Source of the DNA: a virus
Reading direction: 5' to 3' (one strand)
Virus record (IMG/VR): IMGVR_UViG_3300031576_000163
Coordinates: 1-39,034 of that record
DNA: 39,034 bases
The notes under the pieces are model-generated. The model did not search any database. It was not told where the DNA came from and was given only the letters and a program-made list of their open reading frames with translations. Below are positions 19,066-37,255 of the stretch, in pieces (within the stretch, counting starts at the first letter, position 1; each line of letters begins with the position of its first letter). A program made the position numbers and the translations under genes.

Positions 19066-19283
19066 TAATGTTTTTCATTACTTTCTGGAATAATAGAAGT
19101 AAGATTAATATGTATTCCAAGAGCTTCAATATTTTCTATAGTGAGCTTATTTTCAATAAGTTCATAATAAATAATATCATAAGATGCCTGCCAATTAATA
19201 GCTCCATTCACCCCCTTAGCAAAATTTGTAAGAAATGTTGCATATTGTCTTACGTCTTCATTATTATCATAATCATTTAACAT
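19065..19283 (-). CDS. Hypothetical small protein
   Basis: 72 residues, acidic and soluble, with no membrane segment or known motif (contains VRQYATFLTNFAKGVNGAINW and IENIEALGIHINL). It is linked to its neighbours by short overlaps (11 nt with the GroES-like gene and TAATG with HNH). The overlaps argue for a real gene; function unknown. Confidence 0.65.
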   Translation of the reverse strand: MLNDYDNNEDVRQYATFLTNFAKGVNGAINWQASYDIIYYELIENKLTIENIEALGIHINLTSIIPESNEKH

Positions 19284-19713
19284 TTTCTTTTTTTTCTTCT
19301 TCTAAAAGAGACATGGCTGTTTTATAAGCATTCTCTCCAAAGAATCTCATTTGTATTTCGCTTTCTCTTATCATTCCTAAAACTGTAGTGCCGCTACTAA
19401 CTAAAGGGCCAAAATAAGAAATGCGTCTCACTGCATGTTGACCTATTAGCACTATGTCGCCCATCTCCACTTCAAGCGGTACGGGTTGATTCTCTTCATC
19501 ATAAAATCCTTCTCCTATTAGCAGCACTCTAGCAAATAGCGGTCTATCTACAAATACACCATCGACAGATTTTTTAAATTCTGTGGGAATGATAATACCC
19601 TTAGTTTTTATTTCTTTCGTTTCCAATATCTCTACTAGAATACAATCGCCTATAAGCCGAAACAATGGCTGACGCTGTAGATTTAATTTTTTAAAAGCAT
19701 TTAAAAAACTCAT
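19273..19713 (-). CDS. GroES-like co-chaperonin
   Basis: 146 residues. After a 20-residue leader, the core has the GroES layout: IGDCILVEILETKEIKTKGIIIPTE at the start (like the GDRVVV...GGIIIP pattern), ARVLLIGEG, VEMGDIVLIGQHAVRRIS, and LGMIRESEIQM at the end (like ILRESDIL). The mobile-loop region (about 46-60) is present. Phage co-chaperonins replace or adapt host GroES for capsid folding, as T4 gp31 does; that function is inferred by family. It is larger than the roughly 95 residues of bacterial GroES because of both tails. Confidence 0.7.
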   Translation of the reverse strand: MSFLNAFKKLNLQRQPLFRLIGDCILVEILETKEIKTKGIIIPTEFKKSVDGVFVDRPLFARVLLIGEGFYDEENQPVPLEVEMGDIVLIGQHAVRRISYFGPLVSSGTTVLGMIRESEIQMRFFGENAYKTAMSLLEEEKKENVK

Positions 19714-26022: not shown

Positions 26023-27939
26023 TTATTTACTCCAATTAGTACTCGCTTTTCCTTCTACTTTTAATGCAATAGCCCCTTGCGGTGTTATCAATTTAAAATC
26101 AGTCATTTGTTCTTTAATAATTTCAATTGCTTCTCTTTCTTTTTCTTCTGGAATCTCTACTACTAATTCATCATGAACTAATAATAAAACATTACCTTTT
26201 ATATTTCGGTCTTTAAATTCTTTTGTTATTTTATAAGCAGAATCTAATACAAGATCGGAAGCAGAAGATTGGATTAAAGTATTAAAACCTTTCATATAAA
26301 TTTCTTCTTTATTATAAAAATAAATCGGCCTTCCTAATAAATTAGTTACTGATTTATATAAAAATATTTCATCTAATTTTCTTTTATAATTAAATACTTG
26401 TTGATATTCTTTTTTAAATAATTCGTGCTTTTCTTTACAATTAGCAAATGACCACATAAAGCCATGTTTTTGAGCCGATTGTTTTATACGTCTTATTCCG
26501 GCTCCGTAAAATAAAGCTAACCCTATTTCTTTAGCTAATTTTCTTTCTCTTGGATAAAGATCTTTTATTTTATTTAGAGGCTCTTTTAAATTAAAAAATA
26601 TCTTTGTATTATAAGTGTGAAAATTTATATTATCCTTTATAAGCATAAATAATATAGGATCATTAGTAAAATAAGCAATAATTATAGGCTCAATAGATTC
26701 CATATCAAAAGCTGCTAATTTATATCCTATTTTAGAAATAAATAATTTATGAAGATTAGCGGGCACTTGCTGTAGATTAGGATAAGAAGAAGAAAGTCTA
26801 CCTGTTCTAGTACCAGTAGGATTGAAAGAACAATGTATAATACCTTCTACTTGTAAGTCTAGATAACTAGGAAAAAAAGATGTGCATAACTTTTTATTTT
26901 TTCTATATTCTAGAAATAATTTTATATCCTCTTTATTATAAGAAGCCAATTTCTCTAATACTTCTCGTCCTGTACTTTCCTTTCCTAAAAATCCTTTTAT
27001 ATTTAATTTAAAGTAATCTTTTAGTAACCAATTTAATTGTGTTGATGAATCTAGATTAAAATCTTTTATTTTACTTTTTGCTTTATCTTCTAATTTTTTA
27101 TATCTTTCAACCGTTTTATTTTTATCTTTCGCTTTTTCTATTCTTATTTGTTTTTTTTGTTCATATTTAGTCTCTATTTCTTTTAGTTTAATATCCTTAT
27201 AAGTTTTATAGGCTTCTTTCCATAAAGTATCTATCTGAGTTTTTAAACCTATAGTTATATCTTTTGTATTTGTACGCTCTTTTATTAATTCTTTTAAATC
27301 AATTTTTATTCCTTTTATTTCGGAAGATAAAAGAACTTTTGCCCATTCAATAAGTTTTGTAAAATAAAATTTATATCCATTTTCTTTTTGTAATTTAGAA
27401 TAAAATAATTCATATAATTTATATGTGTATTCACAATCTTTTAAAACATATTCTTCATTATTATGATTAGTAGGATCTTCCCAAAAAGGATCTATTTTAA
27501 GAAAAAAAGGAGCTAATATTTTTAAAGAGTGATTACCTGTTTTTCTATGATTATAGCCTTTTGGTAATAATTTATTTTTTTCTATTCTTTTTAGTTCATA
27601 ATTAATTGAATAATCTTCTGGAATTTTTTCTATAAGAACATGTGCCATTATTTGTGTATCATGCGACCAATAATTTATTAAGTCTAAACCATGAACATAT
27701 AAAGTATGGAGATCAAATTTTAAATTATGGCCTATTAATTCTATGCTTTTAAAAGTATTAAGAAAATACTTTAAGTCATCAACTTTAGTAAATGTAGCAG
27801 TTTTATATTCATTATTTTCCTTATAGTATACTCCAATAATTGTTATTTTATTTCTATAAGGATCCAATGGATGTTTACAATGTTTATCTTCACATGTATC
27901 CATGTTACATTCAGTTTCAACATCTAAACTAATTAGCAT
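26023..27939 (-). CDS. Family A DNA polymerase with 3'-5' exonuclease
   Basis: 638 residues. N-terminal DnaQ-type exonuclease: LISLDVETE (Asp6, Glu8), IGHNLKFDLHTL (Asp76), YVLKDCEYTYKLY (Asp168). Polymerase motifs: PTGTRTGRLSS (about 374-384); motif A AFDMESIEP (Asp412); motif B RKLAKEIGLALFYGAG with Arg466, Lys470, Leu474 and Tyr478; motif C LVHDELV (His589, Asp590, Glu591). Leu474 aligns with E. coli Pol I Phe762, a position where Leu is reported in many temperate or slow phages. There is no 5' nuclease domain. A long charged helical insertion is at about 240-300. It copies the phage DNA, presumably with the Prim-Pol/helicase at 32140. Start overlaps the next upstream gene by one base. Confidence 0.9.
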   Translation of the reverse strand: MLISLDVETECNMDTCEDKHCKHPLDPYRNKITIIGVYYKENNEYKTATFTKVDDLKYFLNTFKSIELIGHNLKFDLHTLYVHGLDLINYWSHDTQIMAHVLIEKIPEDYSINYELKRIEKNKLLPKGYNHRKTGNHSLKILAPFFLKIDPFWEDPTNHNNEEYVLKDCEYTYKLYELFYSKLQKENGYKFYFTKLIEWAKVLLSSEIKGIKIDLKELIKERTNTKDITIGLKTQIDTLWKEAYKTYKDIKLKEIETKYEQKKQIRIEKAKDKNKTVERYKKLEDKAKSKIKDFNLDSSTQLNWLLKDYFKLNIKGFLGKESTGREVLEKLASYNKEDIKLFLEYRKNKKLCTSFFPSYLDLQVEGIIHCSFNPTGTRTGRLSSSYPNLQQVPANLHKLFISKIGYKLAAFDMESIEPIIIAYFTNDPILFMLIKDNINFHTYNTKIFFNLKEPLNKIKDLYPRERKLAKEIGLALFYGAGIRRIKQSAQKHGFMWSFANCKEKHELFKKEYQQVFNYKRKLDEIFLYKSVTNLLGRPIYFYNKEEIYMKGFNTLIQSSASDLVLDSAYKITKEFKDRNIKGNVLLLVHDELVVEIPEEKEREAIEIIKEQMTDFKLITPQGAIALKVEGKASTNWSK

Positions 27940-28570: not shown

Positions 28571-28995
28571 CAATAACTCCATCTTCTTATTTTGTCATCT
28601 CTTGTATCTAGATGTAAAAAGCTCTTAGCTATTCCAATTGATTTAAAATAGCATTCACAAATAAGCATTAATTTATCCATATCTCGACATGTAACGTCTA
28701 CAGCATTCCCTAAAAGATGCTGAGAATTAGGCGATGTTTTATACCCAAGTGTTTGTAAATATAATTGATACTCGGCTGTTCTATAAGCACTTGTAATAGA
28801 CAAGGGCATCTTTAAGGCATTTCTTACATTTTGAAGGCGTTGCACTAAGTCTTGGCTTATACATTGAAGATCACCGCTCTTACTCCCAGCACATTCAAAT
28901 TCTGTTGTAACAAAATGAGATGATAGCTGTAGTATAGTTCCCTTTTGCCATTTATAATAACCTTTTGATAATAATACTTTATCTGGATAGGTCAT
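28570..28995 (-). CDS. M15-family peptidase (endolysin-like)
   Basis: 141 residues. Zinc and catalytic motifs of Peptidase_M15_3 are visible: SAYRTAEYQ (Arg72), SQHLLGNAVDV with His93 and Asp100, and FLHLDTR with His128 and Asp130. It would cut peptidoglycan cross-links or D-Ala-containing peptides. There is no signal peptide or wall-binding domain, so release would depend on a holin, possibly the 44-residue protein at 17841. Its ATG is preceded by GAGGA. Confidence 0.85.
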   Translation of the reverse strand: MTYPDKVLLSKGYYKWQKGTILQLSSHFVTTEFECAGSKSGDLQCISQDLVQRLQNVRNALKMPLSITSAYRTAEYQLYLQTLGYKTSPNSQHLLGNAVDVTCRDMDKLMLICECYFKSIGIAKSFLHLDTRDDKIRRWSY

Positions 28996-29224
28996 ATTTC
29001 CTCACTTTAGTTTTTTCTTTTAAATAAATAATATAATATCCGCAATAAATACAAATATCTTGATAAGCTAATGTGGGCACTAAAGGGGGGCTATTTTTTT
29101 CATCATAAATGCTTCCGAATATATATTGTGTTTTTCTAAAGGACAGCCCTGTATAAACAGAATAAGATTTTAAACAGCTACAAGCGGGGTACGGGGGGAC
29201 TAAGATCTTTTTCCTTTTCCTCAC
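28979..29224 (-). CDS. Hypothetical protein with Cys pairs (GTG start)
   Basis: 81 residues beginning at a GTG, 7 nt after AAGGA, which is the best start. Cysteines: CSC near 15, and CIYCG near 57; a structural zinc is possible. The C-terminal part (YYIIYLKEKTKVRKYDLSR) is amphipathic and basic. It is coupled to both neighbours by overlaps of 17-47 nt. Function unknown. Confidence 0.55.
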   Translation of the reverse strand: MRKRKKILVPPYPACSCLKSYSVYTGLSFRKTQYIFGSIYDEKNSPPLVPTLAYQDICIYCGYYIIYLKEKTKVRKYDLSR

Positions 29225-29357
29225 TGTTTGTTCCTTTTTCTAAAGCAGCTAGTTTATTCTCTAACTGCCCCACTTTCATTCTAAGGAACATTAGTCCATA
29301 AATCAAGTCATTTTTACTAAATTGTTTTAATCGCTTCTTTTCTTCTTTAAAATTCAT
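29178..29357 (-). CDS. Small coiled-coil protein
   Basis: 59 residues with a helical, charged middle (KRLKQFSKNDLIYGLMFLRMKVGQLENKLAALEKG cut here into heptads) and a Pro-rich end (DLSPPVPRL). ATGA overlap with the upstream barrel-like gene and a 47-nt overlap with the next gene. Below common length cut-offs but well placed. Function unknown. Confidence 0.6.
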   Translation of the reverse strand: MNFKEEKKRLKQFSKNDLIYGLMFLRMKVGQLENKLAALEKGTNSEEKEKDLSPPVPRL

Positions 29358-29797
29358 TGTTGACTCTTATATATAATAAATCTTATTCCTACGCTATCTT
29401 GTACAGGAAATGATGTAGAGGTCCATTTGGTGTCCATTAAGTGCTGAGAAAAATGGGCATATTCTATCTCAATTTGTCTTGTTAAAGCCGCCCCTAAAGA
29501 AAAAGCCCAGCTAATAGCTCTAAACTGGCCGTCATGTACATAATTATCCTCGTCTGTATAAGCACTTATATTATTTCTCCAATAAAAGGTGTTGTCTATA
29601 AGTCCAAAATCAATCCCTAATATAAGTTCTTTATCTAAGGTTTTACCCGGCACATGATTTATAACTAAATTACGAGATCCATCAAAATAATGTTTATAAC
29701 TAAGATCTACTTTAGATAGAGATATCAAACTAAAAGCCTGAGCAGGATAGGCTAGAAATAAACATAGGCCTATACAAAGTTTATGGATAGAATTCAT
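29354..29797 (-). CDS. Secreted outer-membrane barrel-like protein (PagL-like motif)
   Basis: 147 residues from the ATG at 29797. A signal peptide is evident (MNSIHKLCIGLCLFLAYPAQA). The mature part has alternating beta strands (SKVDLSYKHYFDGSRNLVIN, ELILGIDFGLIDNTFYW, ALTRQIEIEYAHFSQHLMD, DSVGIRFIIY) ending in an aromatic residue pattern, like small outer-membrane barrels. The H-x-S in YAHFSQH resembles the catalytic His-Ser of lipid A deacylase PagL. It may alter the lipopolysaccharide of the infected cell. The similarity is short and the assignment tentative. Confidence 0.55.
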   Translation of the reverse strand: MNSIHKLCIGLCLFLAYPAQAFSLISLSKVDLSYKHYFDGSRNLVINHVPGKTLDKELILGIDFGLIDNTFYWRNNISAYTDEDNYVHDGQFRAISWAFSLGAALTRQIEIEYAHFSQHLMDTKWTSTSFPVQDSVGIRFIIYKSQQ

Positions 29798-30065
29798 CTT
29801 CAATCTTTTTAGCACATCCCTTAAATTCTGGTGTGTGCATAAGTTTACAATAAGAACAATAAAAATGCAAAGAACAACTATATAAACTATCTGATTGTTT
29901 TAACAAATCTTCAAAAGCTCTTTCTAATTCGCCCATTTCAAAACTATTTAATTCTTGAGGCTGTATTTCTTCTTTACATGGGGAACAATACCAATAAGCA
30001 TGTGTGACGCCTATGGCTTCCCATTCAACAAATCGGCCTTCTTTGTTACATTTATTACAAATCAT
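29781..30065 (-). CDS. Zinc-ribbon-like protein
   Basis: 94 residues. Cysteine pairs: CNKC near 3-6, CSPC near 27-30, and a second set at CSYC near 70 with a nearby CAKK, enough for one or two zinc ribbons. Acidic middle (ELNSFEMGELERAFEDLL). No known family. Overlaps both neighbours. Confidence 0.6.
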   Translation of the reverse strand: MICNKCNKEGRFVEWEAIGVTHAYWYCSPCKEEIQPQELNSFEMGELERAFEDLLKQSDSLYSCSLHFYCSYCKLMHTPEFKGCAKKIEDEFYP

Positions 30066-30309
30066 AATAGGTCCTATCTGGAGTGTCGAGCTTAGTACGG
30101 GGGCCGCAAGTGACTAGATAATTGTTAGGAGCCATTTTAGCGAATTCTTGTACACAAGGCATATCTGGATACATCACTTCGCATTTTTTCTTGCCTTCCC
30201 CTAAATTAACAATATCTTGCTGCACCCAAGGCATTTGGCTATTGTTTACCATTTTTGTTTGTGGGCATCCAATAGAAGCAGCTACTAAATAGCTAATCAG
30301 AAGATTCAT
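30055..30309 (-). CDS. Small lipoprotein
   Basis: 84 residues with the lipobox signal MNLLISYLVAASIGC (Cys15). The mature part contains a Cys-rich block (KKKCEVMYPDMPCVQEF, NYLVTCGP), similar in layout to small phage lipoproteins with a CVxEF...xxCG pattern. It would sit on the periplasmic face. Overlaps the flanking genes by 11-17 nt. Confidence 0.65.
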   Translation of the reverse strand: MNLLISYLVAASIGCPQTKMVNNSQMPWVQQDIVNLGEGKKKCEVMYPDMPCVQEFAKMAPNNYLVTCGPRTKLDTPDRTYYDL

Positions 30310-30460
30310 CCTTGTCTCCTTTTGACATTTTCTTACTAAATTCCGCCAATTCTTCTTCTAGTCTACGCTTCTCTTCCTTTTCTGAAAAAGTGAGCCCTGA
30401 TGTAGATTCTTTGAAAGATAGGGCCACTAGTCTCGCTTTTATTGGATTTATATTAGCCAT
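30293..30460 (-). CDS. Small charged helical protein
   Basis: 55 residues from the ATG at 30460. Acidic/basic mixed helix (MANINPIKARLVALSFKE, EEKRRLEEELAEFSKKM, GDKDESSD). A longer upstream start in the same frame lies within the DUF6496-like gene and is less likely. Overlaps its neighbours by 8-17 nt. Function unknown. Confidence 0.6.
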   Translation of the reverse strand: MANINPIKARLVALSFKESTSGLTFSEKEEKRRLEEELAEFSKKMSKGDKDESSD

Positions 30461-30611
30461 ATTTTCTATTAGCCTTTCTTTGTTCACTAAACGCAATAGC
30501 CAAAGCTTGTTTAAGCTCTGTAACTTTTCGGCCATTAGACGATTTTAATTTTCCCTCTTTAAATTCTCTCATCACTTTTTTAGCTTTAGCTTTTATTTTA
30601 GTCCCAGCCAT
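30453..30611 (-). CDS. DUF6496-like small basic protein
   Basis: 52 residues from the ATG at 30611. It has the signature of the DUF6496 phage family: KKVMREFKEGKLKSSNG then KVTELKQALAIAFSEQRKA. Very basic, so nucleic-acid binding is possible, but the family has no known function. Overlaps the membrane-protein gene upstream by 14 nt. Confidence 0.75.
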   Translation of the reverse strand: MAGTKIKAKAKKVMREFKEGKLKSSNGRKVTELKQALAIAFSEQRKANRKYG

Positions 30612-30843
30612 AACTAAATATATCATCCTCATCATCTTCTATTTTTATATCAAGTTTTTTCTCAATAGTTTTAAGCCTCTTGCTATGATAAGACATACCG
30701 GGATGCATTATACGTCTTACCGAATGCTTAAAAAAATATGGCTTAGAGGCTAGTCTTTTTTCAAGCAAATGTTTAAAAAGAATATAAGACAATGCAGTGT
30801 AGAGCGTGAATCCGAAAGCATAAGCAGCTAATTGTATAAGCAT
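30598..30843 (-). CDS. Single-span membrane protein
   Basis: 81 residues: one N-terminal membrane helix (LIQLAAYAFGFTLYTALSYILF), a basic region (KRLASKPYFFKHSVRRIM), and an acidic C-terminus (KIEDDEDDIFSYGWD). GAGGA lies 8 nt before its ATG, inside the end of the 22-residue gene. Function unknown. Confidence 0.6.
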   Translation of the reverse strand: MLIQLAAYAFGFTLYTALSYILFKHLLEKRLASKPYFFKHSVRRIMHPGMSYHSKRLKTIEKKLDIKIEDDEDDIFSYGWD

Positions 30844-30849
30844 TACTAA

Positions 30850-30918
30850 TTATTCCTCATTTGTTGCAAATAAGAGAATAACAAACAAACTAAGAACAAG
30901 CAAGACACTTTCAAGCAT
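30850..30918 (-). CDS. 22-residue transmembrane micro-protein
   Basis: MLESVLLVLSLFVILLFAT followed by NEE: a single short membrane helix. The ATG overlaps the TAA of the 54-residue gene (TAATG), and the stop is 6 nt before the next ATG. Both junctions match normal phage coupling, which argues for a real small protein, although it could be a leader. Confidence 0.5.
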   Translation of the reverse strand: MLESVLLVLSLFVILLFATNEE

Positions 30919-31082
30919 TAATCGTTATCCAACATTAATCCTTCTAGCATTACATCTTGCACATCTTGTAAAAAATCATCTATATTATTTTCAGAAGGCT
31001 TAGCTAGGGTGAGCTCTCGCACATATGTGCCGCCAGTGGTGTGGAGAGTGATGTTAATTTCTATTTCTTTTAATTGATCCAT
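30918..31082 (-). CDS. Small acidic protein, first gene of the leftward operon
   Basis: 54 residues: MDQLKEIEINITLHTTGG, a short basic centre (VRELTLAK) and an acidic end (NNIDDFLQDVQDVMLEG...DND). AAGGA lies upstream. It is the first gene after the divergent repeat region, so an early regulatory or anti-repressor-like role is possible by position only. Confidence 0.65.
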   Translation of the reverse strand: MDQLKEIEINITLHTTGGTYVRELTLAKPSENNIDDFLQDVQDVMLEGLMLDND

Positions 31083-31456
31083 ATACCGATAGTCCTTTCT
31101 TTATTTAATGCGTCTTCAGCATTTATTCTACTGTATCACATCTTCGATCTAAGCCTCAGCCCTATAAGCATATGCTTATGCCTTGTTTATGCTTATACTT
31201 GTATAAGCATAAATAAGTAAATGCTTAAGCAAGTGCTTATGCATAAGCTTTATATAAGCAGTATAGGCTGTATAAGCCGTATACATCAATGTCTATTATA
31301 TTTCCTATGCTTAAGCAATTGTATATACATATGCCTATACACCAATTGTATATACATATGCTTATACATATAGGTATACAACAATTGTATAAGTACCTTT
31401 ATAGTAAATAGGCGAAAATATGTATCCTATTGTTATTATTCGTATAAATATATATA
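31083..31456. repeat. Palindrome- and repeat-rich intergenic region (ori/operator candidate)
   Basis: No gene is seen between 31083 and 31507. The core 31160-31393 is packed with GCTTAT/ATAAGC units: a perfect 16-bp palindrome at 31164-31179; a 28-bp inverted repeat with 13-bp arms at 31186-31213; TGCTTAAGCA at 31222-31231; GCTTATGCATAAGC at 31235-31248. A 25-bp tandem repeat follows at 31316-31340 and 31343-31367 (one mismatch), then a third partial copy at 31382-31393. The region separates leftward and rightward transcription units. Such arrays often bind an initiator or repressor in phages. Confidence 0.8.
31260..31289 (-). promoter_or_regulatory. Leftward promoter candidate
   Basis: On the minus strand TTGATG (31289-31284), 18-nt spacer, TATACT (31265-31260, 5 of 6 to consensus). 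It would transcribe the leftward operon starting at 31082, with a leader of about 170 nt across the palindromes. It lies between the palindrome cluster and the tandem repeats, so factors binding them could control it. Confidence 0.45.
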
Positions 31457-31485
31457 TTGACTTATACAGACGCGGTAGATATAGT
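31457..31485 (+). promoter_or_regulatory. Strong rightward sigma70-type promoter
   Basis: TTGACT (31457-31462), spacer of exactly 17 nt, TATAGT (31480-31485): one mismatch in each box. Transcription would start near 31492, giving a 16-nt leader that carries GAGGAG before the lipoprotein ATG at 31508. Confidence 0.75.
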
Positions 31486-31507
31486 AAGAGACAAAGAGGA
31501 GACACAA

Positions 31508-31753
31508 ATGAAAAAGATTTTATTAATAATAGGCTTGATGGCCTTATCATGCGGGGATGAAGAAGGTTCTGTGTTTGCTCCGATGCTAGAATCCTCTCCT
31601 TCTCCTGCCCCCTGCACTGTCAATGAATGCGCTTGGATCGACCCAGAGGGGTCATGCTTAAACAAATATGACGCTTGTAAGGCAGCTTGTGAGCCCCAAA
31701 CACTAAAAAAGTTCACCCCCGGCACAGACGAATGTCTATGCGATACGCACTAA
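31508..31753 (+). CDS. Cysteine-rich lipoprotein
   Basis: 81 residues from the ATG at 31508, after GAGGAG (a longer upstream start lies within the promoter). Signal MKKILLIIGLMALSC with lipid Cys15. The mature part is short and contains seven further cysteines (C36, C41, C50, C57, C61, C76, C78) in a pattern suited to several disulfides in the periplasm or outside. It is the first gene transcribed from the strongest promoter of the switch region. A superinfection-exclusion or lysogenic-conversion role is possible; the sequence alone does not show it. Confidence 0.75.
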   Translation: MKKILLIIGLMALSCGDEEGSVFAPMLESSPSPAPCTVNECAWIDPEGSCLNKYDACKAACEPQTLKKFTPGTDECLCDTH

Positions 31754-32037
31754 CCCCATCCTACACGAAGGGGGAGAGACTAACCCTCTCTTCCCCTATA
31801 TTTTCTATAGGAGAGAAAGTGAAGCACTTATCTTTTAAAAAATACGGAATCATAATAAAAGTGTTTCCTTCAGAAGCCATTAAAGCAGAATGCAATAGAT
31901 CTACCCCATATTGTGAATGGCAATATTATGTTCAGCATTCAGGCTGGATATGGTCGGTGTCCGAATATGCACTAAAAAGCTATCAGATAAAACAGGATAT
32001 GAAAAGTGACAAAAAAGAGCATAATAATATCCACTAG
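31732..32037 (+). CDS. Small SH3-like (KOW-type) protein
   Basis: Up to 101 residues. The domain FSIGEKVKHLSFKKYGIIIKV, then CEWQYYVQHSGWIWSVSEYAL, resembles small SH3-like barrels. The start is uncertain: ATG at 31732 or 31738 has no ribosome site and overlaps the lipoprotein, whereas a GTG at 31819 follows TAGGAG well but would cut into the domain. The hairpin at 31769-31797 lies between these choices. It probably binds nucleic acid or protein next to the replication gene; function unknown. Confidence 0.5.
   Translation: MSMRYALTPSYTKGERLTLSSPIFSIGEKVKHLSFKKYGIIIKVFPSEAIKAECNRSTPYCEWQYYVQHSGWIWSVSEYALKSYQIKQDMKSDKKEHNNIH
31769..31797 (+). terminator. Hairpin after the lipoprotein gene
   Basis: A 10-bp stem: GGGG/GAGAG (31770-31778) pairs with CTCTC-TT-CCCC (31786-31796), 2-nt bulge, 7-nt loop, then TATATTTTC. 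The T-rich tail is modest. It may end most lipoprotein transcripts and reduce flow into the Prim-Pol operon. Confidence 0.5.
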
Positions 32038-32139: not shown

Positions 32140-33723
32140 ATGATAAAAGATGCCTTATCACTAGCTAGAGATGGATGGAGGGTGTTCCCCTGTGTCCCAA
32201 ATGACAAAGCCCCTTTAGTGCCAAGGGGTGTGTCAGAAAGTACAACAAATATCGACCAAATACAGCTTTGGTGGAACCGTTGGCCATCAGCCAACATTGG
32301 CCTAGCTACAGGTAGGGGGGTAGTGGTGATAGATGTAGATACAAGAGAAGGGGCATTAGCTACTTATAAAGCCTTGCTTAGAGAGGTGAACACCTACACT
32401 GTGCGCACTGGTAAGGGGGGACTACATCTTTATTATAAATATGATGAAAAATTAACAATAAGGAATAAAGTAAATCTATTCCCAGGAATTGATGTGAGAG
32501 CAGATGGAGGATATGTGCTGGTGCCCCCTAGTCAAACAAATGCCTTATACAAAATAGAGACGGATATGGATCTACAGCCTTTGCCTAAGCATTTGTTAGA
32601 ACAGTTAATCAATAAGCCTGAGAAGAAAGTGGCTATTATACAAAATAATGTATTAGAAGGGGGCAGAAATGACTATATAATGCGGGCAGCAAGTGCTATG
32701 TTAAACAAGGGCTTAGACAAAGAGGCTGTGGTGGAGGCATGTTTAATAGAAAACACTAAAAAATGCTCTCCCCCATTAGAAGACGACGAAATAGAGGCTA
32801 TTGTCGATAGTGTGAGCAGATATGCCCCAAATAACGTGATACAGCTCTCTAAAACAAATTATATAAAAGCATTTGAATTATTTAATCCAATGTGTCTCTA
32901 TCTTCAAAATAAGGATAAAGTGCAAGGCGAGCCAACAGGATTTAAAGAAATAGACGGTATGCTTGGTGGCGGAAAACGTACAGGCGAGCTCACAGTGTGG
33001 CATGCAGAGGCTAAAACAGGAAAGAATGCTTTTTGGCACAAGCTTATGCACATATGGCTCACTAAAGGAATTCCTATTGGGTATGCATCACGAGAGCTAT
33101 CGCCAGAAACAGAGGTGTTACCTAATCTATTATCTATAGAATATAAAAAGAATGCTTGGTTAGATAATTTAACAAAGGCTGAAGCAGAGGCTATGCTAAA
33201 AAAATGGCCTCTTTATTTTTCTAAGGGATATGGATTTTTTAATATTGTTGAAATAGAGAATTGGATAAAAGATCTTAAAAACTTAGGAGTGAGGTATTTT
33301 TATTTTGATCATTTGCATTATATGTTAGAGGAGCCAGAAGAACATAAAGATGCGAGTAAATTAATAAAACAGCTTAAAACATGGTGTAAAGAACAAGATA
33401 TTCATATTGATATTATTGTTCAGCCTAATAAATTAATGGAAGGACAAAGACTAGGATTGGGCACTATTAAAGGGGGTGCTGCCATTGGCCAGGCTTTAGA
33501 TAATTTATTTATTTTAGAACGAGAAAAGAATGAGGATAAAAAAGATATTTTAAAAGTAAAACTAGATGTAGCTCGTTCACGTTTAGCTACTCCAGGAGAA
33601 ACCTATTTTGAATATAATAGAAACACAACAGACTTTATAGAATTGAATGTTGAATATATAAAAGAGATAAAAACAGTTGATCCTAAATCATTTAAGCCTT
33701 GGGTTTTCAATAAGAGCTCTTAA
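32140..33723 (+). CDS. Prim-Pol primase/helicase
   Basis: 527 residues from the ATG at 32140. N-terminal bifunctional primase/polymerase (about 1-150): ALSLARDGWRVFP, catalytic VVVIDVDTREG (Asp65, Asp67), GKGGLHLYYK (His96), and VRADGGYVLVPPS. PriCT-like helix (about 172-230): GGRNDYIMRAASAML to EIEAIVDSVSRY. C-terminal RecA/DnaB-like helicase: the P-loop is HAEAKTGKNAFW (Lys295), with Asn instead of the usual Ser/Thr, Walker B FYFDHLHY (Asp390), and QALDNLFILEREK to LDVARSRLATPG as later motifs. It would open and prime DNA for the family A polymerase. It lies next to the repeat region, a likely origin. Confidence 0.85.
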   Translation: MIKDALSLARDGWRVFPCVPNDKAPLVPRGVSESTTNIDQIQLWWNRWPSANIGLATGRGVVVIDVDTREGALATYKALLREVNTYTVRTGKGGLHLYYKYDEKLTIRNKVNLFPGIDVRADGGYVLVPPSQTNALYKIETDMDLQPLPKHLLEQLINKPEKKVAIIQNNVLEGGRNDYIMRAASAMLNKGLDKEAVVEACLIENTKKCSPPLEDDEIEAIVDSVSRYAPNNVIQLSKTNYIKAFELFNPMCLYLQNKDKVQGEPTGFKEIDGMLGGGKRTGELTVWHAEAKTGKNAFWHKLMHIWLTKGIPIGYASRELSPETEVLPNLLSIEYKKNAWLDNLTKAEAEAMLKKWPLYFSKGYGFFNIVEIENWIKDLKNLGVRYFYFDHLHYMLEEPEEHKDASKLIKQLKTWCKEQDIHIDIIVQPNKLMEGQRLGLGTIKGGAAIGQALDNLFILEREKNEDKKDILKVKLDVARSRLATPGETYFEYNRNTTDFIELNVEYIKEIKTVDPKSFKPWVFNKSS

Positions 33724-33885
33724 TTCATTTAATTCATTTTGCATATTTTTATAATTAGCCTCTAAATAATTAAGATAGCCATATACAACAAGTGTATTTA
33801 TAACAAAAAAGATTATAAAAGCACTAATATAAGAAATAAAATCAAAAAATAGCAGCCCCATTAATAATAAACAAATAGTAACCAT
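33688..33885 (-). CDS. Small membrane protein with coiled-coil tail
   Basis: 65 residues: an N-terminal hydrophobic half of one or two spans (VTICLLLMGLLFFDFISYI and FIIFFVINTLVVYGYL) and a helical tail (EANYKNMQNELNELRALI). AAGGAT lies before the ATG. The end overlaps the end of the Prim-Pol gene by 36 nt on the opposite strand. Function unknown. Confidence 0.55.
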   Translation of the reverse strand: MVTICLLLMGLLFFDFISYISAFIIFFVINTLVVYGYLNYLEANYKNMQNELNELRALIENPRLK

Positions 33886-33896
33886 ACATTATCCTT

Positions 33897-34109
33897 TCAA
33901 GCAGCTTGTTTTAATAAATTTTTAATCATATCTTCTATTGTATTTATCCAAGAATCTAATTTAAATAAATGCTCATCTAATTTCTTTGTAATATAAACTG
34001 CCATTGGATTGGTTTTTTCATATATTCTTTCAACAATTTTTCTTTGGCCTTGGAGCATTAAATAGGTTTTCTGTAACTTAATTAAATTCTCTTCTTGATT
34101 TGGGGTCAT
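33897..34109 (-). CDS. Helical hypothetical protein
   Basis: 70 residues from the ATG at 34109 (GGAG lies 8 nt upstream; an in-frame GTG three codons earlier has no room for one). Helical and mixed charge, with LQKTYLMLQGQRKIVERIYEK and KLDEHLFKLDSWINTIEDMI. Possibly dimeric. Overlaps the next upstream gene by 32 nt. No family recognised. Confidence 0.6.
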   Translation of the reverse strand: MTPNQEENLIKLQKTYLMLQGQRKIVERIYEKTNPMAVYITKKLDEHLFKLDSWINTIEDMIKNLLKQAA

Positions 34110-34260
34110 TTTGTTCACTCCTTTTAATAAAATCCTCTATAAAATTTACTAATGTTACTATGTCCCCTACTCTATCTAATTCTTTTTGTAAACTTTCAAG
34201 TCTGAGATTAGATCGTTGTTTAATATTTATACATAATCTTAAGATATCTTTATTATTCAT
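34078..34260 (-). CDS. Helical hypothetical protein
   Basis: 60 residues from the ATG at 34260 (GAGGA upstream). Predicted helices NNKDILRLCINIKQRS, LRLESLQKELDRVGD and VTLVNFIEDFIKRSEQN. The ATG overlaps the 33-residue gene's stop as ATGA. Function unknown. Confidence 0.6.
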   Translation of the reverse strand: MNNKDILRLCINIKQRSNLRLESLQKELDRVGDIVTLVNFIEDFIKRSEQNDPKSRREFN

Positions 34261-34358
34261 AAATTCCTCATTAAAAAATAGTAGCAAAATAAGTAATATA
34301 GAAAAGGTGTAGAGATAACTAATAAATTTAAGATTAATTCATAATTAATATTCTTCAT
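34257..34358 (-). CDS. 33-residue transmembrane micro-protein
   Basis: MKNINYELILNLLVISTPFL and a hydrophobic continuation to MRNL form one membrane helix. It has one of the best ribosome sites in the cluster, AGGAG 7 nt before the ATG, and ends with an ATGA overlap into the next gene. Both argue for a genuine gene despite its size. A role in membranes, perhaps with the 65-residue protein at 33688, is only a guess. Confidence 0.65.
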   Translation of the reverse strand: MKNINYELILNLLVISTPFLYYLFCYYFLMRNL

Positions 34359-34371
34359 TTATATTCTCCTT

Positions 34372-34599
34372 TTAAAGATTTTGATAAGTTTTTTCTATAT
34401 ATTTTATAGCTTTATTATAGTCTTTTTCTGATACAATTTCAAGCACTATATCTTTCCAATATATATATCCGGAGGAAATAGTATTAACAATTGCATCACA
34501 ACAAGGATAAACAGCATTTGTATATGCCTTACACGTCATACAATGACCATCAACAAATAGCCAGTCTTTTAACTGTTTTTTTTGATCCTTAGTTAACAT
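34372..34599 (-). CDS. Small Cys-rich protein
   Basis: 75 residues: cysteines at CMTC near 20-23 and a CC pair near 33-34 may bind zinc (DGHCMTCKAY, VYPCCDAI). The rest is helical (IVLEIVSEKDYNKAIKYIEKTY). The ATG overlaps the end of the coiled-coil gene. Function unknown. Confidence 0.6.
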   Translation of the reverse strand: MLTKDQKKQLKDWLFVDGHCMTCKAYTNAVYPCCDAIVNTISSGYIYWKDIVLEIVSEKDYNKAIKYIEKTYQNL

Positions 34600-34768
34600 G
34601 TTCTATTTCCCTATAATAATTAAAAAGTTCTTGTAATATATCTTTTTCTACTAAAAAAACTGTTCTTTCAGTTTCATTTAAACGCATTTTTAAATCTCTT
34701 ATTTTAGCTTTAAGGAATCTATTTTCAATGTCTTGATCTTTTTTTGTTGTTTTTATCCTATTATTCAT
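34589..34768 (-). CDS. Small coiled-coil protein, first gene of the short leftward operon
   Basis: 59 residues: MNNRIKTTKKDQDIE, then a charged heptad-like region to LNETERTVFLVEKDILQEL. GAGG lies upstream of the ATG. It is the first gene on the left of the 34769-35400 region. Possibly a small dimeric regulator, but no HTH is evident. It is too short to have been picked up by usual length limits. Confidence 0.65.
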   Translation of the reverse strand: MNNRIKTTKKDQDIENRFLKAKIRDLKMRLNETERTVFLVEKDILQELFNYYREIEHVN

Positions 34769-34872
34769 ATTATTACCTCAATAAATATTTATCTTAAATT
34801 GATATTAATGCAACAATTACGCCATTAAAATTGTCTATAATTTCAACCCAAAGTAAAGAAAACAATGGTTAA

Positions 34873-34891
34873 TTGTCAGTCATAGTGACAA
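34873..34891. promoter_or_regulatory. Operator-like inverted repeat
   Basis: TTGTCA-GTCATAG-TGACAA: 6-bp perfect arms with a 7-nt centre that is itself partly symmetric, 19 bp total. It lies between two divergent units, in the size range of repressor operators. No second copy was noticed in the window. Confidence 0.4.
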
Positions 34892-34948
34892 ATATTGGTT
34901 CTATATAATCTATATGTGTTATACTTTTAAGTTACAAAGAAGGGCGCG

Positions 34949-35149
34949 ATGCATGAATATTCGTATCCCTTTATAAGCATAAATATAATTTTTATAGTTT
35001 CTCTTTGTTTATTTTTGTGTTTGCAAATGTATAGCAATACATTGTCATCAGTATTACATTATCTAATAGAATCAATAGCTTATCTACCCCCTCTGTATAA
35101 GCCCTTGCACCCCTCAGCATTCCTGCCTAACACCCCCCACATTAAGTAA
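34949..35149 (+). CDS. Possible small membrane protein
   Basis: 66 residues from an ATG after AAGAAGG. One hydrophobic helix (ISINIIFIVSLCLFLCLQMY), then a Pro-rich end (YLPPLYKPLHPSAFLPNTP). Composition and the proline-rich tail are odd for this genome, so it may be chance. Listed because no other gene covers this stretch. Confidence 0.3.
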   Translation: MHEYSYPFISINIIFIVSLCLFLCLQMYSNTLSSVLHYLIESIAYLPPLYKPLHPSAFLPNTPHIK

Positions 35150-35382
35150 GAGTAATTGTTGTATAAGTTGTGGTCCCTTACCATATCCCCAATAGATACA
35201 TATACTTAGGCAAGGGGCGCGTACCTGCCCGCTCGCTTACCCTCCCCAATCATATTCTGCTTCACAGATGGATTAGGATTAAAAACTCTCTGCCTAAGCC
35301 CTTGTATTCATTAGAGGATTTGTCGCACAAATGCATTTCAAGCCTTTTACTAAAATTAAGCAATTATATCTAAAAAAATATA

Positions 35383-35391
35383 TGCTACACT
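35383..35391 (+). promoter_or_regulatory. Extended -10 candidate before the terminase gene
   Basis: TG-C-TACACT: an extended -10 (TG plus TACACT, 4 of 6). No convincing -35 box is present 17 nt upstream. Transcription would start only 1-5 nt before the ATG at 35401, and there is no Shine-Dalgarno sequence, so the terminase message could be leaderless. Confidence 0.35.
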
Positions 35392-35400
35392 TGATAAGCC

Positions 35401-35790
35401 ATGTCGAAAAGACAACATAATAGAAAATCCGGCCATCAAGCAGAAGACCATAGGATTCGTTTAGTAGATGATTTAAATGCTTTTGACGAATTTAAGGAGA
35501 AAATCCTTCCAGCCCTTCGGCGCGATTTGTTAAAAGGAATGCCTTCAGAAAAGCTAAGAGAAAAATACTCGGCCTATATTACAGCAGGAATGATAACAAC
35601 GGCTCTTATAGATGAAGATCCAGGCAAGCGCTTAGCAGCAGGCAAAGATTTAATAGATCGAGTGGAAGGCAAAGCTAAGGAACGTAAAGAAATTGAGCAT
35701 AGGCTTACACGCTTAAGTGAAGACGAACTGAATGCCGTCATAGCTTCCGAAATACAAGATTTAGATGAACTTGAAAAACAGAAACATTAA
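35401..35790 (+). CDS. terS: Small terminase subunit-like protein
   Basis: 129 residues, charged, helical. An N-terminal basic part (MSKRQHNRKSGHQ), the FDEFKEKILPALRRDLLKG helix, LREKYSAYITAGMITTALI, and a C-terminal helix (ERKEIEHRLTRLSEDELNAV) match the small terminase subunits that recognise the packaging site and assemble as a ring. It directly precedes and overlaps the large terminase gene by 26 nt. There is no visible ribosome site upstream; see the promoter entry. Confidence 0.75.
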   Translation: MSKRQHNRKSGHQAEDHRIRLVDDLNAFDEFKEKILPALRRDLLKGMPSEKLREKYSAYITAGMITTALIDEDPGKRLAAGKDLIDRVEGKAKERKEIEHRLTRLSEDELNAVIASEIQDLDELEKQKH

Positions 35791-37255
35791 AGGTCTATCT
35801 AAAGAAGAAAAGCTCTATTTATATGACCTCATCCAAGAAAAGAAGAAACGGCTTAGAGCCACCAAACTTCTTTATCAAGCCAACACTATGCAATCCATTA
35901 TTCATGCCTGCACTAAGCAAATAAGAGTGGTGCTCTCGGGCAACGGAGCAGGCAAAACCGTTGCCCTCATACAAGAAGCATTTTGGGCAGCCACCGGATA
36001 TAATCCGTCCACCGAATCCTATACAAAAGTGCCTGCCCGCGTCATAGTGGTGCTCGACCATCCAAGCAAGGTGAAGGACAAGTGGATACCAGAGTTTAAA
36101 AAATGGTTTAATTTTAATGAGGACCAGTTTAAGAAAGACGGAAAGCCCTACATTTCTAGAATAGAATTTCCTAATGCCTCTGAAATAAGCTTTATGTTTC
36201 ATGAACAGCCTGATATGGCCTTTGAATCTATAGAAGCCGCAGCCTTTATATATGACGAGCCTCCTCCAAGACGTATATGGTATTCGTTAATGCGCGGCGG
36301 CAGAGAGAAAAACTATGCACCAATGTTTCTTTTAGCTGGCACCCCCATTGCTCAAGCCTGGATAAGACAGGAAATATTGGAGCCCTGGTCAAAAGGGAGT
36401 TTAAAGGATACAGAATGTTTTAGATTTGATAGCGATGTTAATAAGGATAATTTAAATTGGGCTGCTTTAGAACTTTATTTTGAAAGGCTTTCAGAGAAAG
36501 AAAAACAAATAAGACGCCACGGAATGTTCTTTGATTTAGAGGGACTAGCTCTCTCTCATCTTTGGAAGAGGGATGTTCATATTATTACTGATTTGCATTG
36601 GGATGAAAAATGGCCTTGTGTAATAGCTATAGATCCGCATCCATCTAAGGCCCATCATGCTGTAATGGCAGGAGCAGACAAAGATGACTATATCGTTGCA
36701 TTAAAAGAGATGAGCGATAAATGCTCTCCTCGTGAATTTGCTAGAAGAATCAAAAGCTGGTACAAAGGCTATAGGGTTACTGACATTGTTGTTGATAGCT
36801 TAGGAAGTCAAGATATGACAGGAGGAGAAGGATTCAAGAGTTTTATACAAGTATTGAATGAAGAAGGAATAAGGGCCCGTAGCACCACATATGAAGAAAA
36901 ACAAGATGAGGCTTTTATAGCTCGTATTCAGGATGCTTTGCTTATTCCCCAAAAAGCCAATAATTTTGGGATGGCTATACCTAAGCTTAGAGTGCATAGC
37001 TTTTGTAGAGGATTAATAAATGATATAGAGAATGTACAATGGGCTAGGGATAAGAGAAACGATGTTAATAAACCAAAGCTAGATATAAGTAATAAAGACT
37101 TTTTAGCTTGTCTTAAATATGCCCTAGCTACCAACATTCACTTTAAAAAAGGTAAAGAGAAAGTGCACTATGCAGATAAGCCCACCACATATGGGGGAAA
37201 GCCCAAGAAAAATAAACCAGTATATATGTCAGTGAAGGCTTGGCTAAAAGACTAA
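35765..37255 (+). CDS. terL: Large terminase subunit (ATPase/nuclease)
   Basis: 496 residues. Walker A is LSGNGAGKT (59-65, Lys64), Walker B FIYDEP (Asp164, Glu165), and coupling motif LLAGTPI (189-195). The nuclease domain has IAIDPHPSK (Asp290), DIVVDSLGSQD (Asp344), and NKDFLACLKYAL near the end with the third acidic residue. It cuts concatemers and drives DNA into the prohead through the portal. The start chosen is the ATG at 35765 inside the small-subunit gene, the only good match to family length; the local ribosome site is weak, suggesting coupling. Confidence 0.9.
   Translation: MNLKNRNIKGLSKEEKLYLYDLIQEKKKRLRATKLLYQANTMQSIIHACTKQIRVVLSGNGAGKTVALIQEAFWAATGYNPSTESYTKVPARVIVVLDHPSKVKDKWIPEFKKWFNFNEDQFKKDGKPYISRIEFPNASEISFMFHEQPDMAFESIEAAAFIYDEPPPRRIWYSLMRGGREKNYAPMFLLAGTPIAQAWIRQEILEPWSKGSLKDTECFRFDSDVNKDNLNWAALELYFERLSEKEKQIRRHGMFFDLEGLALSHLWKRDVHIITDLHWDEKWPCVIAIDPHPSKAHHAVMAGADKDDYIVALKEMSDKCSPREFARRIKSWYKGYRVTDIVVDSLGSQDMTGGEGFKSFIQVLNEEGIRARSTTYEEKQDEAFIARIQDALLIPQKANNFGMAIPKLRVHSFCRGLINDIENVQWARDKRNDVNKPKLDISNKDFLACLKYALATNIHFKKGKEKVHYADKPTTYGGKPKKNKPVYMSVKAWLKD

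Follow-up and report, generated by a model that had tools for sequence, protein, structure and literature searches.

A dense array of probable binding sites in the divergent control region of an uncultured tailed phage

Stoperators of the L5 type are asymmetric sites which are found both at the early promoter and dispersed over the genome, with up to ~30 copies per genome and mostly in one orientation (PMC6550527). They appear to be the closest functional analogy to the locus reported here, which belongs to an uncultured tailed phage known from an IMG/VR virus record; the whole record, 39,034 bases long, is referred to as the window. As in the Cluster A mycobacteriophages L5 and Bxb1, many copies of an asymmetric site of 12-13 bp are found at and around an early promoter, with a moderately supported excess inside early genes. 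On the leftward half of the genome the units point mostly with transcription (10 of 13), and the bias in orientation is limited to this half (8 versus 12 elsewhere). Unlike in L5 and Bxb1, a stretch of 300 bp holds about 18 densely spaced sites arranged as dyads, and the satellite copies lie within 4 kb instead of being spread genome-wide. The phage also differs from L5 with respect to the repressor, since no match to a repressor family, and hence no L5-type immunity repressor, is present among the early-region proteins scanned.

A second comparison is provided by the repeated element SPBRE of phage SPbeta, which is bound by MrpR, a protein that has lost its catalytic residues (PMC10516654). 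Both systems combine a repeated element at scattered intergenic sites with a protein of the tyrosine-recombinase fold, while the dense array is a feature of the present locus and not of SPBRE as described there. In contrast to MrpR, the small tyrosine recombinase of this phage keeps all catalytic positions (R, K, H, R, W and Y), as do its homologues in four relatives (G005, G011, G019 and G022, 29-40% identity), except for a His to Lys exchange in G005.

The origins of lambda and of plasmids are defined by iterons arrayed next to A+T-rich DNA (PMC5043065), and semi-palindromic repeats serve the origin of a phage satellite (PMC7145576). With these origins (lambda ori, P1, RK2 and the PLE satellite) the locus shares a cluster of repeated, partly palindromic sites that has A+T-rich DNA and a gene for replication nearby, but it differs from them by the missing helical phasing, the mixed orientations, the larger number of sites and the extra sites before a late operon.

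Gene layout and repeat content

The capsid protein (gene at 1202-2140) shares 56% identity with its counterpart from the Manatee Spring phage MW202601. A leftward gene set extends from ~31.1 kb down to ~16.6 kb and a rightward set begins at 31508, with the divergent control region in between (Table 1). The Prim-Pol/helicase gene is located beside this region, as had been proposed, with two small genes between, and its product is assigned by the Pfam families PF09250 (6.8e-36), PF03796 (9.6e-12) and PF08708 (8.6e-10). In its helicase part the Walker A motif, usually GK[ST], reads AKTGKN, and G021 and G005 have this same AKTGKN. No family match was obtained for the 81-aa product of the first rightward gene. 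A basic protein of the DUF6496 family is encoded at 30453-30635. A GroES-like co-chaperonin gene is found at 19273-19713 on the minus strand, with homologues in five relatives.

Table 1. Coordinates of the control region, its repeated elements and the genes referred to in the text
Feature	Position	Strand	Remarks
Small tyrosine recombinase, 239 aa	19725-20444	-	
Family A DNA polymerase	26023-27939	-	
Satellite units, first leftward genes	28852-30844		Units at 30833, 30817, 29836, 29765, 29555, 29150, 28852
First leftward gene, acidic 54-aa protein	30918-31082	-	pI 4.1, net charge -9
Divergent intergenic control region	31083-31507		Between leftward ORF 30918-31082 and rightward ORF 31508-31753
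Candidate leftward -10 box TAGAAT	31125-31130	-	Weak -35; read by eye, absent from promoter scan
Array of ~18 copies of the asymmetric 12-bp unit TATGCTTATACA	31161-31468		Both orientations; iterated weight matrix
22-bp dyad CCTATAAG-CATATG-CTTATGCC	31161-31182		Contains a 16-bp perfect palindrome
Perfect palindrome ATAAGCATATGCTTAT	31164-31179		
28-bp inverted repeat TTTATGCTTATAC-TT-GTATAAGCATAAA	31186-31213		13-bp arms; two units tail to tail
Overlapping units	31220-31249		TGCTTAAGCA and 14-bp palindrome GCTTATGCATAAGC
Perfect palindrome GCTTATGCATAAGC, 14 bp	31235-31248		
Three units, 9-bp pitch	31251-31283	-	TATAAGCNG repeats
26-bp tandem repeat, copy 1	31316-31341	+	Holds dyad TGTATATA-CATATG-CCTATACA at 31320-31341
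26-bp tandem repeat, copy 2	31343-31368	+	Holds dyad TGTATATA-CATATG-CTTATACA at 31347-31368
Third, partial tandem copy CAATTGTATAAGTACC	31382-31397	+	CAATTGTATA at 31382
Rightward sigma-70-type promoter TTGACT-17-TATAGT	31457-31485	+	10/12 consensus matches
First rightward gene, 81-aa lipoprotein-like product	31508-31753	+	Begins MKKILLIIGLMALSC
Prim-Pol / PriCT_1 / DnaB-type helicase	32140-33723	+	Alternative TTG start 32098; Pfam
Second control region, unit-enriched	34769-35400		Upstream of terminase operon; units at 34970, 34976, 35094, 35160, 35201, 35289 and others
Terminase large subunit	35765-37255		
Ideal dyad TGTATAAG-CATATG-CTTATACA			Half-site TATGCTTATACA
22-bp dyad TGTATATACATATGCTTATACA			

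The control region is the most repeat-dense noncoding DNA of the 39-kb record. Compared to 500 dinucleotide-shuffled versions of its 425 bp, it contains 47 excess repeated 9-mers (shuffle mean 7.7, maximum 23, reached in 0/500), six palindromes with arms of at least 6 (1.85 in shuffles, 5/500) and a longest inverted arm of 13 (shuffle mean 6.5, 1/500). Away from this area no other 425-bp stretch of the window exceeds 20 excess repeated 9-mers, which bears out the original prediction that the densest structured DNA is located here. The palindromes, the inverted repeat and the tandem repeat named in that prediction are all present, including the 28-bp inverted repeat with its 13-bp arms. The tandem repeat, given there as 25 bp with one mismatch, measures 26 bp, with two copies that are 25/26 identical at a pitch of 27 bp and a third, partial one. 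Furthermore, TGCTTAAGCA is present twice (31222-31231 and 31308-31317), and folding of the region as single-stranded DNA yields a z-score of -6.6 relative to shuffles. An RNA element was considered and rejected, as no Rfam family matches the region and weak matches to microRNA models are far below threshold and attributable to chance; coding was rejected as well, the overlapping ORFs of 50-62 aa being by-products of the repeats without further support.

One 12-bp unit inside and outside the array

Almost every palindrome and repeat described above is a variant of the single unit TATGCTTATACA. A weight matrix seeded with this unit converges on the 18 sites of the array, with scores of 7.5-17.1 bits. 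In the three 22-bp dyads centred on CATATG (31161-31182, 31320-31341 and 31347-31368) two units are positioned head to head with an overlap of two bases. Inverted and direct units are mixed, and no helical phasing of the array sites is found (best period 9.9, null P 0.18). There is no exact DnaA box in the control region, and the four one-mismatch matches were discarded because all of them belong to the unit or to the promoter. We know of no LexA, ParB or other host motif that matches the unit.

Promoters had been proposed on both strands. The rightward one is a good match, and one unit (31457-31468, 9.7 bits) overlaps its -35 element and spacer; the leftward one is a weak candidate read by eye, and the promoter-like matches in the area are as frequent as by chance (8 versus 7.8 in a promoter scan).

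In order to locate further copies, a matrix trained on the array alone was employed. Outside the array, 13 of the 19 matches above 10 bits lie within 4 kb, versus 1.9 expected, and this clustering is reached in 0/200 local shuffles and by 0/500 column-permuted matrices. Ahead of the terminase operon, in the second control region, first- to third-order models predict 0.9-1.6 sites above 8 bits, and 7 are observed (0/200, 0/300); this region is overlapped by two small ORFs, 34949-35149 and 35170-35373, without homologues or family support. Within the first leftward genes (28.5-31.07 kb) there are 7 units above 10 bits versus ~0.8 expected (0/200 local shuffles). When synonymous codons are permuted with the proteins kept fixed, 6 such satellites stand against 2.6 expected (8/500, P ~0.016), and because of this raised expectation they are only moderately supported; the unit may thus be over-represented within these genes. 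The weight-matrix scan gives no excess in the distant part of the early region or among the late genes.

The second control region also harbors GCGCGTACC (35217-35225), upstream of the small terminase gene, which occurs once in the genome with 0 expected by chance. It is found at a like position in G019/G020 (L071:2430) and G021/G022 (L066:5670) and is a candidate packaging (cos/pac) signal.

Operator and origin readings

The reading ranked first is that the array constitutes a multi-site operator with ~18 predicted sites for one sequence-specific DNA-binding protein, and we put the chances of this at about even. A single protein, we infer, would occupy the DNA that separates the leftward early promoter from the promoter of the rightward Prim-Pol/helicase operon, and would repress, or coordinate, both. 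The unit over the rightward -35 element and spacer, when occupied, would keep RNA polymerase off the promoter, and repression would extend to the leftward promoter as the array fills cooperatively, while the sites upstream of the terminase operon would put the late genes under the same protein.

Several observed features agree with an operator: one 12-bp matrix covers all 18 sites across 31161-31468, the repeated unit is positioned between divergent transcription units as well as over a rightward promoter matching the consensus at 10 of 12 positions, and it is enriched again before the terminase operon. Counting against it, most sites are located between the promoters instead of on them, the leftward promoter matches the consensus poorly, 18 sites are far above the need of simple operators, and the leftward-gene satellites shrink under fixed protein sequence to the numbers given above. 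With respect to the binding protein, no recognisable transcription regulator is found among the ~45 proteins scanned. The product of the first leftward gene, which had been suggested as a binder of the array, is unlikely to bind DNA because of its acidic pI and its net charge of -9, and is rejected on this ground.

Ranked second is a replication origin, in which the units would act as iterons bound by an initiator, either the Prim-Pol/helicase or a small partner; we consider this possible, though rather unlikely. In its fuller version, to which the same tentative standing is given, the A+T-rich flank at 31391-31460 would melt and the adjacent Prim-Pol/helicase would be loaded, the promoters being either neighbours or origin-activating. 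The array is noncoding, with the primase-helicase gene only two small genes away. As in an iteron origin, the repeated sites have an A+T-rich stretch and a replication gene as neighbours. The TpA density of the array region is the highest of any 300-bp stretch (65 versus a mean of 31.8), and a 50-bp segment at 31416 falls into the 99.6th percentile of low stability. On the other hand, DNA stability is lowest at other places in the window (28101 and 34315), the sites lack helical phase and mix inverted with direct orientation, unlike phased plasmid iterons, and the DnaA-box-like words are inherent in the unit. An origin alone also does not predict the extra sites before the terminase operon. 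Cumulative GC skew, which had been put forward as a check, turns at 31805, but the turn is explained by gene orientation: the leftward genes at 33724-34768 have a skew of -0.226 despite their position right of the turn. As the skew follows gene direction, it is uninformative on the origin and the turning point is no evidence for one.

The original prediction had left open an origin, an operator or both. It is the operator that gains support, from the common unit, the promoter overlap and the recurrence before the terminase operon; the two functions are not mutually exclusive and could both hold. A more far-reaching form of the operator reading, which we regard as improbable, is that the array and its satellites form a silencing or counting network, outside the mycobacteriophages, for a regulator of no known family. 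Here an 18-site, dyad-forming array would serve for nucleation, with early and late satellites, possibly coupling early transcription to the start of replication.

If the operator reading is true, the locus would represent a compact control element of a widespread group of uncultured tailed phages, comprising dozens of IMG/VR contigs with capsid proteins 52-71% identical, for which no known regulator or origin was met in the searches performed here. The 22-bp dyad would then be a ready bait toward a new family of DNA-binding proteins.

Conserved position and lineage-specific sequence

Searches with single proteins (Prim-Pol and DNA polymerase) returned no close relatives. Relatives were reached only through alignment of the capsid protein, two capsids leading to 15 viral contigs and a deeper alignment to 38. 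The gene order is largely common to MW202601, G005, G011, G019, G021, G022 and G038. In the Manatee Spring siphovirus (MW202601.1), G005, G021 and G038, which have homologous capsid, terminase or DNA polymerase genes, a noncoding gap recurs between the leftward early operon, which carries the DNA polymerase, and the primase-helicase gene or operon. This conservation also speaks for an origin. The gap of G021 measures 800 bp and shows at its right edge a TTGACA-17-TATAAC promoter (read by eye); the corresponding gap of G011 comprises only ~70 bp.

The gaps of these four relatives contain other sequences. No cluster of TATGCTTATACA is found in the relatives, where the densest 425 bp hold at most 3 matches versus 17 here, and an exact search with two dyad forms in all viral contigs gave nothing. 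Repeats of another kind are in excess in the G021 gap (38 versus a maximum of 37 in 300 shuffles). Since no relative found carries the motif cluster, the array is lineage-specific; since the gap recurs with other sequences, its position is conserved and its sequence is not. Absence of the repeat units from relatives had been named beforehand, together with replication starting elsewhere, as an outcome that would refute the prediction, and in this respect the units are indeed absent while the position is retained. Such gaps with other sequences are what coevolution of operators with a rapidly changing regulator would lead one to expect. The locus is described as a real, strongly non-random and lineage-specific array of probable binding sites at a conserved regulatory position.

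The same absence of the motif from relatives is compatible with a non-functional or selfish repeat expansion, in which short TATA and GCTTA words would have multiplied, via slippage and local duplication, in a stretch that evolves fast and has few genes. The 26-bp repeat with its 25/26 identity resembles a recent tandem duplication, and the array and its satellites are located in segments whose genes are without homologues in the relatives compared. However, slippage does not yield inverted pairs at several spacings, a single unit is kept across diverged copies, and the unit is also over-represented ahead of the terminase operon at a distance of 3.5 kb, so that such an expansion is considered doubtful at best. 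Least probable is a recombination site with the dyads as targets of the phage's own tyrosine recombinase: this protein has intact catalytic positions and homologues in four relatives, and dyad arms of ~11 bp around 6-8 bp are compatible with dif/lox geometry, but recombinases use one or two core sites and not 18 units, the gene lies 11 kb from the array, and the recombinase-bearing G005, G011, G019 and G022 are without such a cluster in the DNA examined.

The small genes at 28979-31082, 31508-32037 and 33688-35149 form a hypervariable segment without homologues in the relatives compared, surrounded by replication and packaging genes for which homologues are present. Upstream of its terminase operon, G038 harbors a cluster of TCAAGTATT-like words of its own, six in 400 bp (L063:2661-3066) and nowhere else in the parts of G038 covered. 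At L071:2236-2253 and L066:5474-5494, in two relatives and also upstream of the terminase operon, an inverted repeat AGTGTAT-N4-ATACACT is found with differing loops. A very strong internal repeat, with 173 excess 9-mers per 425 bp, is present in G005 (L034:10851-11275).
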